Shown piece after piece: positions 7,164 through 16,288 of a DNA stretch of 31,821 bases. The notes under the pieces were generated by a model, which saw only the letters and a program-made list of their open reading frames with translations, made no database searches and was not told where the DNA came from. Source of the stretch: a virus. The stretch is taken from positions 1 to 31,821 of IMG/VR virus record IMGVR_UViG_3300005914_000045. One strand, written 5' to 3'. Every line of letters begins with the position of its first letter. Position 1 is the stretch's first letter. A program made the position numbers and the translations under genes.

Positions 7164-8938
7164 TGGACGACACCACCACTACCAAGCCGTGCCCTGAATG
7201 CCGCAAGGCGGGCAACGACAAGTCGGGTGACAACCTCGTCATGTACCCGGAGGGTCGTGGTGCTCACTGTTTTGCGTGTGGGTACCACGTGTCAGGACAC
7301 AAGCAGGCAGCTGACGTAGCCCCTCCGTCCAAGGGGTTCGATGTAAAGCGCCCGATCATCGGCAAGGTGATCGCCCTGCCGGGCCGTCGCATCGACAAGC
7401 GCACGGCTCACCTGTTCGACTACCGCACCGCCAAGATCGGCAGCAACCTGATCGAGGTGGCCAACTACTACAGCCACGGTGAGCTGCAGGCGCAGCAGCT
7501 GCGGTTCGTGGAGAAGGACGGTGAGCCGTGCAAGAAGTTCGGGTGGCGTGGCAATACCAAGAAGCTGCCGATGTTCGGTCAGCACCTATGGAATGGCAAG
7601 GGTAAGCGCATCGTCATCACGGAGGGGCAGATCGACTGCCTCACTGTGTCCCAGCTATGGGGCAACCGATGGCCGGTGGTCAGCATCCCCAACGGATCGA
7701 ACAACGCAGCTCAGGCGGTACGTCAGAACCTGTCGTTCATCGCAGGGTACGACGAGATCGTTCTGTGCTTCGACATGGACGATGCCGGGACCAAGGCTGC
7801 AAAGGAATGCGCCGAGCTTCTGCCCCCGGGCAGGGTGAAGATCGCCAGCCTGCCGTACAATGACGCGAACGACTGCGTCATCAAGGGGGAGAGCAAGCGA
7901 CTGCTCTCCTGCCTCTACGAGGCCAAGTCGTTCCAGCCTGACGGTGTCATCCCTGCCTCTGAGGTGGGGAAGCGCACCAAGAAGCAGAAGACGTGGACCT
8001 TCCCATGGCGGGGCCTCACCCTGTCCATGGTGGGGCAGCGATCGGGAGAGATCACGCTGTGGGCATCGGGCACCGGCTCGGGCAAGTCCACGGTACTGCG
8101 TGAGATACTGTACCACCACAGGCAGCGTGGCCGCAGGGTGGGCGCAGCCTTCCTTGAAGAGTCTCCCGAGGAGACCATGATGGACCTGATCGGTCTGCGA
8201 CTGGAAGCTCCTGTGCGGCAGGCTGACGCCAGCAAAGAGATCAACGAGATCCTAGCCCAAGAGGGAGAGGAACCGATCGACTTCGGTATCGACGTGAGCT
8301 ACACGGAGGAGGACTACGACGAAGCGGACTCCTTCTTCCGTGACGGCCCGCTGTTCTTCTACGATCACTGCGGGACCAACGACTTCAACACCCTGATGGC
8401 TCGTATCGAGTACATGGTGGTGGCCCTGCAGTGCGAAGTCATCATCATCGACCACATCACCGCAGTCATCGCCGGCATGGACCGGACTGGCTCGGAGAGG
8501 GAGATGATCGACAGCGTGATGAAGCAGTTCAGATCGCTGGTCGAGCGCACGGGTGTGCACATCGACATCGTCAGCCAGCTGAACAGGCTGGACGGCAAGG
8601 CCGCGGAGGAGGGAGGGCGCATCACGCTCAACAACCTCCGTGGATCAGGTTCGCTAGGTTCGGTGCCCAACAGTGTCATCGCAATCGAGCGCAACCAGCA
8701 AGCAGATGACCCCCGAGAGCGCAACATCATCAAGGTGCGTACGCTCAAGGGCCGGTTCGTGGGTAAGACAGGTGTGGCCTCCTTGTTGGAGTTCGACCCT
8801 GACACCCGACGACTAGTAGAAACCGATTGGAGACCAGATGAGTCAGCAGGATTCGAACCAGAAGAAGAGCCCGCCGAAGACGACGCAGTCCCCTCAGTCG
8901 ACGAACTCTTCCGGGGAGGGCCAGCCAGTGCAGCTTGA
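7160..8938 (+). CDS. Bifunctional DNA primase-helicase (T7 gp4-like)
   Basis: It unwinds the fork 5' to 3' as a hexamer and lays RNA primers. The length is 592 aa against 566 in T7. In order: a zinc ribbon (C11, C14, C37, C40) for template recognition; a TOPRIM domain with ITEGQID (E155) and FDMDDAG (D205, D207, D208); then a RecA/DnaB-like helicase with Walker A GTGSGKS (K309), EESPEE, Walker B VIIID (D431), the DIVSQLNR segment and LRGSGSLGS. KGRFVGKTG aligns with the arginine-finger region of T7 gp4. The C-terminus is acidic (FEPEEEPAEDDAVPS), as needed in T7 to bind polymerase. ATG 7160 and ATG 7163 are both possible starts; 7163 has better spacing from GAGAGG. Its 3' end is overprinted by the next ORF. 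Confidence 0.97.
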   Translation: MMDDTTTTKPCPECRKAGNDKSGDNLVMYPEGRGAHCFACGYHVSGHKQAADVAPPSKGFDVKRPIIGKVIALPGRRIDKRTAHLFDYRTAKIGSNLIEVANYYSHGELQAQQLRFVEKDGEPCKKFGWRGNTKKLPMFGQHLWNGKGKRIVITEGQIDCLTVSQLWGNRWPVVSIPNGSNNAAQAVRQNLSFIAGYDEIVLCFDMDDAGTKAAKECAELLPPGRVKIASLPYNDANDCVIKGESKRLLSCLYEAKSFQPDGVIPASEVGKRTKKQKTWTFPWRGLTLSMVGQRSGEITLWASGTGSGKSTVLREILYHHRQRGRRVGAAFLEESPEETMMDLIGLRLEAPVRQADASKEINEILAQEGEEPIDFGIDVSYTEEDYDEADSFFRDGPLFFYDHCGTNDFNTLMARIEYMVVALQCEVIIIDHITAVIAGMDRTGSEREMIDSVMKQFRSLVERTGVHIDIVSQLNRLDGKAAEEGGRITLNNLRGSGSLGSVPNSVIAIERNQQADDPRERNIIKVRTLKGRFVGKTGVASLLEFDPDTRRLVETDWRPDESAGFEPEEEPAEDDAVPSVDELFRGGPASAA

Positions 8939-13495: not shown

Positions 13496-15060
13496 GTGAC
13501 CCCATGACCATCGCCAAGCGGTTTCAGGCTCTGGACACCGACAGGCAGACAGCACTGGCCCGGAAGCGCGAGCACGCTCGCATGACCATGCCAACGCTGC
13601 TACCCCCGGCGGGGCATACCGTGCACACTCTGCTCGATGTGCCCTACTCGTCCGTCCCGGCCGAAGGGGCCAGCTCCCTCGCCAGCCGCATCACCTCCAT
13701 GGTGTGGCCGACGACCGGGCAGGCGGTGTTCGAAGCCGAGCTGACCCAAGCCTTCGACCCGGGGGGCCGAGACGACACCGAGCTGAGCGCCAGCTTCCAA
13801 CGGTTCGAACAGCTCGTCATGAGTGTGCTCGCCCCGACCAACCTACGCGCCACGACGTTCCTGTCGTACCAGCACGAGGTGGTTGTCGGTGACTCGCTGA
13901 TGCACATGGATGACGACTTCCACTTCCGCATGTTCCGTGCCGACCAGTTCGTGGTGCGGCGCAAGCATGAGGGAGACTGGCAGGAGATCCTCCTCGTCGA
14001 GGCCGTGCTTCCCGAGTGGGAGCCAGAGCTTGCTCTGCCCAATTCTGGTCCGGGCCCTGTGCAGGCTCCAAAGTACACGTCGTTCCCCTCCTCGCCGCAA
14101 GGTGAGAAGTGGGAGTACCTGTACACCGCGATCACCAAGGACCCGAAGACGGGTGAAGTCACTGTGGTGCAGGAGCACCGCGACCGAGAGGTCGGACGCA
14201 AGCAGTTCAAGACCAGCCCGTACTTCCCCGGCCGCTGGGGCGCCATCGCAGGGGAGCCTTACGGCATCTCCCTCGTGGAGTCCATCTTCGGGGACATCCG
14301 TGCCCTGTCGATGCTGAGCAAGTCGCTCTACGACCTGTCCGCACTCGTGTCCGAGCACCGCTGGGGTGTCAACACTGCCGGTATCACCGAGCTGCAGGAC
14401 ATGCTCGACTCCGTCAACGGCGGAGCGGTCCCAGCTGCACCGGGAGACATCTTCCCGCTGCAGTTCGCGTCCAGTCAGGCGCTGTCGGCCCTGTTCGCCA
14501 CGGTACAACACCGTGAGCAGCTGGTCGGCCGACGCTTCCTGATGAACAGCGCCGTGCAGCCGACAGGCGAGCGCGTCACTGCCCGTCAGGTGTCCATTCT
14601 GGCCCAAGAGCTGGAGGGCATGCTAGGTGGGGTGCTGTCGATCGCCGCGCGCGACAAGCAGGAGCCCGTCATCAAGCGTGTCATCTCCGTGATGGCCGAC
14701 AAGGACATGATCCCCTCCGAGATCAGGGACCAGATCCTCGATCCGGCCGGGTTCGTCAAGCTGCGCATCCGTGCGGGTCTTGAGATCCTGAACCGCGAGG
14801 TCGAGCGCGAGAAGCTCGACTCCATGGTGGTCAACATGCGCAACCTGCCGCCCGAAGCCTTCGAAGGTGTCATCTGGCCCGCCGTCATGCGGGACTGGTG
14901 GCAGTCGCAGGGTATGGAGACCAAGGGTCGCATCATGTCCGAGGAAGAGCTGGCCCAGAAGCGGCAAGCAGAGCAGCAGCAGGCCATGCAGGCCCAAGCA
15001 CAACAGGCAGCGCTAGGTGCCGCCCAAGCAAGAGCAAGTCAGCCGCCTCCGGCTGAATGA
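13492..15060 (+). CDS. Portal (head-tail connector) protein (T7 gp8-like)
   Basis: It forms the dodecameric ring at the capsid vertex through which DNA is packaged and ejected. It has 522 aa against 536 in T7. The N-terminus DRQTALARKREHARMTMPTLLPP followed by SSVPAEGASSLASRITSMVWP is the standard start of podoviral connectors of this group. EPYGISLVESIFGDIRALSMLSKSL and SAVQPTGERVTARQVSILAQELEGMLGG are further conserved helical blocks, the latter in the wing/crown region. The C-terminal 40 residues are Gln/Ala-rich and likely coiled or disordered. GTG 13492 overlaps the previous stop. It directly precedes the scaffold gene, as expected. Confidence 0.96.
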   Translation: MSDPMTIAKRFQALDTDRQTALARKREHARMTMPTLLPPAGHTVHTLLDVPYSSVPAEGASSLASRITSMVWPTTGQAVFEAELTQAFDPGGRDDTELSASFQRFEQLVMSVLAPTNLRATTFLSYQHEVVVGDSLMHMDDDFHFRMFRADQFVVRRKHEGDWQEILLVEAVLPEWEPELALPNSGPGPVQAPKYTSFPSSPQGEKWEYLYTAITKDPKTGEVTVVQEHRDREVGRKQFKTSPYFPGRWGAIAGEPYGISLVESIFGDIRALSMLSKSLYDLSALVSEHRWGVNTAGITELQDMLDSVNGGAVPAAPGDIFPLQFASSQALSALFATVQHREQLVGRRFLMNSAVQPTGERVTARQVSILAQELEGMLGGVLSIAARDKQEPVIKRVISVMADKDMIPSEIRDQILDPAGFVKLRIRAGLEILNREVEREKLDSMVVNMRNLPPEAFEGVIWPAVMRDWWQSQGMETKGRIMSEEELAQKRQAEQQQAMQAQAQQAALGAAQARASQPPPAE

Positions 15061-15071
15061 GGAGAGAGACT

Positions 15072-15959
15072 ATGTCCGTTGAGAAGCCCGATACCAGCAC
15101 CGCCGAGGGGCGTGCAGCCCAGATGGTCCAGTTCAGCATGGCGCAGCCACACAAGGTGCCTGCCAAGTTCAAGCGCGAGGACGGTACGGTGGACGGAGAC
15201 GCCCTCCTGCAGTCCTACACCGAGCTTGAGCGGCGACAGAGCGGAGGCAGCCCTGCTCCCGCCCCTGATCCGGTGGCTGCCACTGACCCGGCCGCAGCTC
15301 TGGAGGACTCGGTAGACGTCGAGGCGGGTGAGAACGCTCTCGCAGCGGCTGAGGGGCAGGAAACTAAGAGCCTCGACGATATCCTCGCCGGGCTGGGCGT
15401 CAAGGGGGATGCCACTGCCCCTTCCATGGCCGAAGCATGGGCTACTGCCGAGGAACAGGCCAAGACTGGCACCCTCACCGAGGACGCCCTCGATGACCTG
15501 AAGGCTGCAGGGGGTACCGACGGCATGCTGCGTGTTCTGGCCGATCGAGCCAAGAGCGTGCAGACTGAGCGCATCGCTGACGCGGTCAGGATCGCCGGCT
15601 CTCAGGGGGATCTGAGCAAAGCCATCAACTGGGCGAAGTCCAAGCTGCTACTGAGTGAGCGGCAGCAGCTCGCGCAGGCTCTGACCGGGCCCAATGCGTC
15701 CATGGTCATGGAGGGTCTTGTTGCACGGGCCCGCGCTGCCGGCGCCATGGGTGAGCCGGGCACGCTGCAGGACGTTCCGGGATCTCCGCCCCTGTCCAGC
15801 AACGCTGCGCTTCGCCCGTTCGCTGACGGCACCGAGTATATGGCCGCGATGGGTAACCCCCAGTATCGCAAGGACCCTGAGTACCGACGCGAGGTGGCCA
15901 AGCGCCACGCCATCACTGTCGGCAAGGATCCTTCACGCTTCGACGGCATCCCCATGTGA
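15072..15959 (+). CDS. Capsid assembly scaffolding protein (T7 gp9-like)
   Basis: It is a 295-aa protein (307 in T7) that guides procapsid assembly and leaves before maturation. It is Ala/Glu/Asp-rich with long predicted helices and little tertiary signature, as typical of scaffolds. KVPAKFKREDGTVDGDALLQSYTELER is the recognisable N-terminal segment, where KF..EDG..D...L..SY.ELE is common to scaffolds of this group. The C-terminus PEYRREVAKRHAITVG may be the capsid-contacting end. GAGGAG lies eight bases before ATG 15072, which sets this start over an in-frame ATG at 15057. Position between portal and major capsid agrees. Confidence 0.93.
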   Translation: MSVEKPDTSTAEGRAAQMVQFSMAQPHKVPAKFKREDGTVDGDALLQSYTELERRQSGGSPAPAPDPVAATDPAAALEDSVDVEAGENALAAAEGQETKSLDDILAGLGVKGDATAPSMAEAWATAEEQAKTGTLTEDALDDLKAAGGTDGMLRVLADRAKSVQTERIADAVRIAGSQGDLSKAINWAKSKLLLSERQQLAQALTGPNASMVMEGLVARARAAGAMGEPGTLQDVPGSPPLSSNAALRPFADGTEYMAAMGNPQYRKDPEYRREVAKRHAITVGKDPSRFDGIPM

Positions 15960-15970
15960 AATATACCCGT

Positions 15971-16043
15971 CTCAGCCGCTCAACGATGCGGGCTGGGGCC
16001 GTGTAAACCGACCGCGCCTCTCGACGATGCGCACTTCGGTCGG
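15971..16043 (+). repeat. Two hairpins with a repeated CTC(A/G)ACGATGCG motif
   Basis: The motif CTCAACGATGCG (15979-15990) recurs as CTCGACGATGCG (16020-16031), 41 bases apart, 11 of 12 identical. Each copy sits in a hairpin. In the first, CAGCCGC (15973-15979) pairs with GCGGGCTG (15988-15995) with one bulged G. In the second, CCGACC (16008-16013) pairs with GGTCGG (16038-16043), with an inner GCGC/GCGC stem. Neither is followed by a T run, so they are not intrinsic terminators. They could be promoter, processing or operator elements acting on the capsid transcript. Confidence 0.5.
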
Positions 16044-16047
16044 TGAT

Positions 16048-16118
16048 GCCATGGTAGTTCAACGGTAGAACACCGGAATTATAGCCCGGCAACGGTGGTT
16101 CGACTCCACCCCAAGGCT
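16048..16118 (+). tRNA. tRNA-like gene, apparent anticodon UAU (Ile AUA), tRNA-Gly-like body
   Basis: A full cloverleaf can be drawn. The acceptor GCCATGG (16048-16054) pairs with CCAAGGC (16111-16117) with one A-A mismatch. The D arm is GTTC/GAAC around AACGGTA. The anticodon stem CCGGA/CCCGG has an A-C mismatch at its inner pair. The T arm is GGTGG/CCACC with loop TTCGACT. The variable loop is CAAC. The 7-base anticodon loop ATTATAG puts T33 at 16079 and anticodon TAT at 16080-16082. The D-arm sequence TAGTTCAACGGTAGAAC and discriminator T at 16118 are as in bacterial tRNA-Gly, which does not fit an isoleucine anticodon. CCA is not encoded. It may be a functional AUA-reading tRNA or a degenerating one. 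The anticodon arm is the weakest part. Confidence 0.75.
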
Positions 16119-16277
16119 TTTGTTAGATCGCCCCGATAGACCTGTACGCATGGCACGAAAGTCCCCAGCAGCAGATAGTCGGTCAGGCCCGCAAGATATG
16201 GACCCCCTGTGAGGGATAATCCAAGCACATCAGTGCAGCGAGAGCGGACAACCTGAATGGCAAGTTCACACTACAAT

Positions 16278-16283
16278 AGGAGG
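16278..16283 (+). promoter_or_regulatory. Strong ribosome-binding site of the major capsid gene
   Basis: AGGAGG lies five bases before ATG 16289, as expected for the most highly translated gene of the phage. Confidence 0.8.
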
Positions 16284-16288
16284 ACAGC

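Follow-up and report, generated by a model that had tools for sequence, protein, structure and literature searches.

AbiF, a ribonuclease of the Abi_2/HEPN type, is a toxin of abortive infection that is held in check by its antitoxin, the abiF RNA (PMC12373285). In C. difficile this RNA (RCd22) contains two abiF motifs, binds AbiF directly and neutralises it whether supplied in cis or in trans; neutralisation is lost with stem-breaking changes and kept with changes that restore the pairs (PMC12373285). Complete AbiF loci are also carried by prophages (PMC12373285). AbiF has been described as a family of RNA-controlled toxins that is ancestral to Cas13 or related to the Cas13 ancestor. Mimicry of a toxin's RNA antitoxin is known from phage PhiTE, whose pseudo-ToxI acts against ToxIN (PMC3475682), and the Racr RNA anti-CRISPRs are phage-borne, solitary units of defence RNA that serve as decoys (PMC10651486). 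In cyanophage S-CREM1 an abiF RNA has been reported as an sRNA whose role is unknown, and the available sections of that report discuss neither its stand-alone occurrence nor its linkage to a tRNA (PMC9964418). An annotated sRNA of unknown role is likewise all that the accessible parts of the literature make of a phage abiF RNA (PMC9964418, PMC12197685).

The DNA studied here (the window, meaning the whole stretch of 31,821 nucleotides, a 31.8-kb viral record) belongs to a T7-like phage, with PHROG matches to RNA polymerase, primase/helicase, DNA polymerase, head-tail adaptor, head assembly and major head protein. An earlier note on this stretch had described a cloverleaf tRNA with a TAT anticodon between scaffold and capsid genes; ARAGORN and Rfam agree on the tRNA, and PHROG places a head assembly gene upstream and a major head protein gene downstream. 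The note overlooked an abiF RNA that ends 3 nt upstream of the tRNA. The features of this region are as follows.

15057-15959, + strand: scaffold (capsid assembly) gene, the upstream neighbour (PHROG 1052 head assembly, E 4e-16)
about 15967-16003, + strand: copy 1, a second, rearranged abiF-like hairpin in which the core CUCAACGAUGC is kept
16008-16044, + strand: abiF RNA (RF03085), complete motif, with a 6-bp stem, a 3-bp stem, the loop CUCUCGACGAU and the 3' strand CACUUC
16045-16047, + strand: spacer of 3 nt that separates the abiF stem from tRNA position 1, from the sequence
16048-16118, + strand: tRNA-Ile(UAU)-like gene (ARAGORN, Rfam), with U73 and mismatches at 4-69 and 31-39
16143-16288, + strand: conserved leader of the capsid gene, from alignment with the cassette-less relative L330
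16289-17371, + strand: major capsid protein gene, the downstream neighbour (PHROG 267 major head protein, E 2.5e-32)

The complete abiF RNA scores 40.3 bits against an Rfam gathering threshold of 37, all nine of its nine pairs are standard, and it is the same in the sister contig (L001). The canonical core (CUCUCAACGAU-GC, with CA..UC on the 3' side) is present with one difference, the window having CUCUCGACGAU and keeping CACUUC. With 40 bits and a G instead of an A in the core it is a low-scoring copy, and the G variant is found in other viral copies too. Compared with RCd22 and AbiFr, a type III-like toxin-antitoxin system of the same family (RF03085), the window has the same motif with all of its pairs and nearly all of its loop bases, and where RCd22 holds two motifs in tandem the window holds two only loosely. 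It differs from that system in having no abiF gene, in lying among late phage genes and in having a tRNA attached where that system has a terminator and a toxin. Copy 1 is non-canonical: one long hairpin replaces the canonical 6+3 bp, and it scores under Rfam detection. Its exact 11-base core stands at 15979-15989, 41 nt upstream of the second core, these two being the only exact abiF cores in the window, and the 88-nt leader that contains it folds with a z of -3.2. Position 15978 is G in the window and T in three contigs of the same virus (L001, L029, L032), where copy 1 has the full core GCCTCTCAACGATGC. An Rfam match to mir-1181 (E 0.36) was discarded as chance. Tandem motifs occur elsewhere as well, two of them in each of the viral contigs L033 and L039, and three near the AbiF gene of a bacterial Ignavibacteriales MAG (L136).

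An AbiF toxin-antitoxin locus has an Abi_2 gene adjoining the RNA, and the window does not: the PF07751 profile finds no Abi_2 gene in it. The bacterial controls were positive, with Abi_2 (PF07751) in 8 of 10 genomes that have abiF RNA, at about E 1e-53, and an Abi_2 gene directly downstream of the RNA in all four bacterial loci inspected; one bacterial Abi_2 protein matches the solved AbiF 8VZ6 at 3e-95. The same profile has no match in 101 other virus and phage records (51 + 50), nearly all of which carry the abiF motif (RHEph01 and a few others lack it). The abiF RNA therefore stands alone in phages, and many of the named phages that carry it are complete genomes. A defence RNA without its effector gene is also what a phage RNA anti-defence mimic would look like.

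Stand-alone copies are common: a 37-base query was matched in 74 phage records, whereas a plasmid collection of three times the size gave 10 matches, most of them partial. T7-like carriers include Aeromonas and Vibrio phages, Roseobacter phage CRP-143 and Rhizobium phage RHEph21, and others are the T4-like Acinetobacter phage Acj61, Salicola phage CGphi29, Arthrobacter phage Mimi, the Synechococcus phages S-CREM1, S-SZBM1 and S-SRM01 and several groups of mycobacteriophages; two scans of viral contigs added further abiF RNAs. Among T7-like phages the RNA occupies three different late-gene gaps, namely connector/scaffold (Aeromonas), scaffold/capsid (the window, CRP-143, RHEph21) and capsid/tail (Vibrio VH-5), which suggests that they acquired it repeatedly.

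Structure was assessed over 142 unique viral places that were chosen by the core alone, the outer stem being disregarded. At least 5 of the 6 outer positions pair in 118 of them; random positions in the same loci reach about 10%, and swapped arms 36%. In the inner stem the free pair, 8-24, is A-U in 33, U-A in 28, C-G in 19 and G-C in 2 cases and is paired in 85 of 103, compared with a maximum of 59 in shuffles, which ignore relatedness. Judged by this pattern, selection maintains the structure of the viral copies. By their flanking proteins the 118 loci fall into at least 30 unlinked contexts; 61 of the loci belong to one linked, cyanomyovirus-like group, and the flanks of the 30 unlinked contexts have no protein family in common.

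In 36 of the 118 loci the hairpin is followed by a tRNA on the same strand whose start lies 2-8 nt away, usually 3-5 nt; random positions would be expected to give 0.65. The tRNA is mostly Arg(UCU), and Thr, Ala, Gly, Ile, Met, Tyr and Leu also occur; in S-CREM1 the sRNA, of the same Rfam family, lies 4 nt upstream of a tRNA-Gly, and in the mycobacteriophages Lolly9, Douge and GenevaB15 the abiF RNA precedes tRNAs for Asn, Lys and Val. Rfam adds tRNAs missed by ARAGORN (low-scoring in L225, cut off in L257), and in L003, L229, L232 and L264 a group I intron downstream of the abiF RNA interrupts an apparent tRNA half, the tRNA being recognised by eye. A tRNA start within a few nucleotides, recurrent and with varied tRNAs, is what a tRNA-matured RNA would have, and most of the present cases fall in one linked group. 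A pattern search for the abiF core joined to a T-arm gave no match, its permitted gap being too short.

A run of U follows the stem in 29 of the 82 loci without an adjacent tRNA versus 1 of the 36 with one (p 6e-5, kinship uncorrected), and the two are thus nearly exclusive as 3' neighbours of the abiF RNA. This fits two ways to a defined 3' end, either cleavage by RNase P at the tRNA or termination. The gaps between tRNAs in the tRNA arrays of the same loci are often below 10 nt as well, and the tight linkage may be a matter of array packing. Because the cyanomyovirus-like group holds almost all tRNA-adjacent cases, the abiF RNA-tRNA unit is, as far as flanking genes indicate, present in about three independent lineages, of which the window represents one.

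Starting from what is observed, that is, the motif and its completeness, a record without AbiF, recurring stand-alone copies and a recurring tight tRNA linkage, we contend that a phage mimic of the AbiF antitoxin, with the tRNA as its maturation signal, is the best explanation of this locus, and we put its probability at roughly two in three. The cassette of abiF-like hairpin, complete abiF RNA and tRNA would be transcribed with the late head genes. Takeover of an AbiF-bearing host by the phage would normally deplete the antitoxin and so release the HEPN RNase, and the phage abiF RNA would hold AbiF inactive by binding it, thereby acting as a counter-defence. RNase P would cut at tRNA +1 and give the decoy a short, defined 3' end, with the spacer 16045-16047 as its 3' tail, and processing at the 3' end of the tRNA would separate the decoy from the capsid message. 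Of the readings that had been offered earlier, that of a tRNA-shaped processing signal is the best supported, although the likely beneficiary would be the adjacent abiF RNA and not the capsid mRNA only.

One precedent, pseudo-ToxI, is likewise a phage-borne, toxin-neutralising RNA without a toxin, and it suppresses abortive infection; it concerns another toxin and another RNA fold and consists of one phage's 1.5 repeats that need expansion, whereas the abiF RNAs are complete and widespread. Racrs share with the phage abiF RNA that they are a solitary unit of the defence system's own RNA, but they mimic CRISPR repeats, and the proposed target here is the AbiF toxin. As many unrelated phages carry the hairpin without a toxin gene, often joined to a tRNA, it is probably a widespread RNA counter-weapon of phages. 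The broader proposition is one that we advance tentatively, namely that stand-alone AbiF antitoxin RNAs serve lytic phages of many families as general counter-defence, that decoy-tRNA units were built repeatedly and their decoys released by host RNase P, and that the tRNA of the window may be mainly a processing handle.

A first alternative is that the tRNA is a working, AUA-decoding tRNA which the abiF RNA merely adjoins, tRNA clusters being landing sites for small RNAs. The tRNA at 16048-16118, the only one that ARAGORN finds in the whole window, is real, the Rfam E of 8e-10 (56.5 bits) excluding chance; its cloverleaf is good, and with its UAU anticodon it resembles the tRNA-Ile(UAU) genes of other phages, such as that of S-CREM1. 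AbiF RNAs also lie within large tRNA arrays in several phages. A73 is the usual discriminator of tRNA-Ile. The window tRNA has U73, no encoded CCA, an A31-C39 mismatch with A32 and G38, all as first noted, and a further mismatch, A4-A69 in the acceptor stem, which had escaped notice, so that it lacks the A73 and the paired acceptor and anticodon stems of a functional tRNA-Ile. It differs from those phage tRNA-Ile(UAU) genes also in being alone and tied to an abiF hairpin rather than part of an array, which still leaves a dual role compatible. The mismatches at 4-69 and 31-39 would fit the suggestion, made at the outset, that the tRNA is decaying.

The in-frame ATA codons that had been listed exist, but ATA is rare in the window, with 16 of 8466 codons (1.9 per 1000) in its 17 main ORFs, and AUA decoding may be possible yet is, at that frequency, little needed. 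The idea that the tRNA serves to read AUA also gains nothing from relatives, none of which keeps the tRNA, or from the isotypes beside abiF RNAs, which vary freely. A glycine-type body had been proposed too; similarity searches gave only partial and uninformative matches to Met, Phe, Asn, Ile and Thr tRNAs and did not confirm it, and placing Gly at AUA through a Gly-charged tRNA is speculation. The earlier note had named a homologous tRNA in close relatives as its own test, and the relative L330, 80% identical in its connector, has none at that place; the window tRNA is therefore accessory. Taken together, we regard a decoding tRNA that the abiF RNA merely adjoins as unlikely.

A second alternative, which we consider distinctly less likely, is that the hairpins and the tRNA act only in cis, as elements that process or stabilise the head-gene mRNA and separate the scaffold and capsid transcripts, like the RNase III sites of T7. 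The position of the cassette between scaffold and capsid speaks for it, and so do the other tRNA-like elements of this gap: a tRNA-Asn in the Rhizobium phages RHEph01 and RHEph21 (L062:1686-1759, L063:1502-1754), and in L331, whose connector is 51% identical, a tRNA-like domain of the tmRNA type at 2175-2257 (52.7 bits). Yet the abiF loop is conserved over unrelated phages and at varied sites, some of them in tRNA arrays distant from the head genes, a conservation for which a cis element would have no need, and L330 and several other relatives have nothing at the place of the cassette.

In L330 the scaffold end and the conserved capsid leader are as in the window, but its scaffold-capsid gap contains neither hairpin core nor tRNA. 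Given so close a relative without it, the whole hairpin-abiF-tRNA cassette is accessory by this comparison, and with nothing in L330, a tmRNA-like domain in L331 and tRNA-Asn in the Rhizobium phages, tRNA-like elements come and go in this gap.

Some further details of the region may be recorded. At the place of the abiF RNA, L330 has a CCCGCC/GGCGGG hairpin with a GAAA loop (7733-7790), in which the abiF outer stem is present and the abiF loop absent. The tmRNA-scoring structure of L331 has only about 15 nt where the message part would be, and in the gap of RHEph21 there is also an abiF RNA (38 bits), together with another stretch that is tRNA-like. The capsid leader common to the window and L330 (16143-16288) reads GCATGGCACGAAAGTCCCCAGC...GGTCAGGCCCGC...GCGGAnAACCTGA; the predicted fold of 16119-16288 is no better than that of shuffles, no Rfam ribozyme or other Rfam family matched the leader, and no phage promoter stood out among the direct repeats. 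The nearest capsids, from Rhizobium, Roseobacter and cyanophage Autographiviridae, are about 30% identical; the capsid search of viral contigs returned the same virus only, and the cassette region had no blastn match in 50,697 phage records.

That the abiF RNA partners another HEPN RNase or another protein, encoded by phage or host, and not AbiF is improbable: detection with a single Abi_2 profile could miss very divergent HEPN proteins, but the unlinked contexts have no flanking protein family in common, and the motif is AbiF's cognate one in bacteria. Least probable of all is a functionless relic of a lost AbiF module, which the unusual core base of the window copy, the rearranged copy 1 and the complete AbiF loci of prophages (PMC12373285) would suit, since stem covariation and a conserved loop over many stand-alone viral copies argue for continued selection without a toxin gene and the 101 records hold no PF07751 toxin remnant.

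If phages routinely carry the AbiF antitoxin RNA, AbiF would be a strong and widespread selective pressure, RNA decoys would extend beyond CRISPR and ToxIN, and phage tRNA genes may exist partly for RNA processing rather than for decoding. Many carriers are cultured phages with M. smegmatis, Aeromonas or Synechococcus hosts, which makes a direct test of the antitoxin mimic possible. AbiF itself is sporadic even in plausible host clades, strong hits being found in 12 of 248 genomes in a sample of Rhodobacteraceae and 3 of 148 in a sample of Mycolicibacterium, and most of the Abi_2 genes in these samples are without a recognisable RF03085 RNA. One Rhodobacteraceae locus (L314) has a canonical abiF RNA beside AbiF (49.5 bits). 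In two Bacteroides loci (L129, L138) the abiF RNAs overlap or adjoin an ORF that looks, by eye, RhuM-type-like and not AbiF, and Abi_2 is present elsewhere in these genomes.
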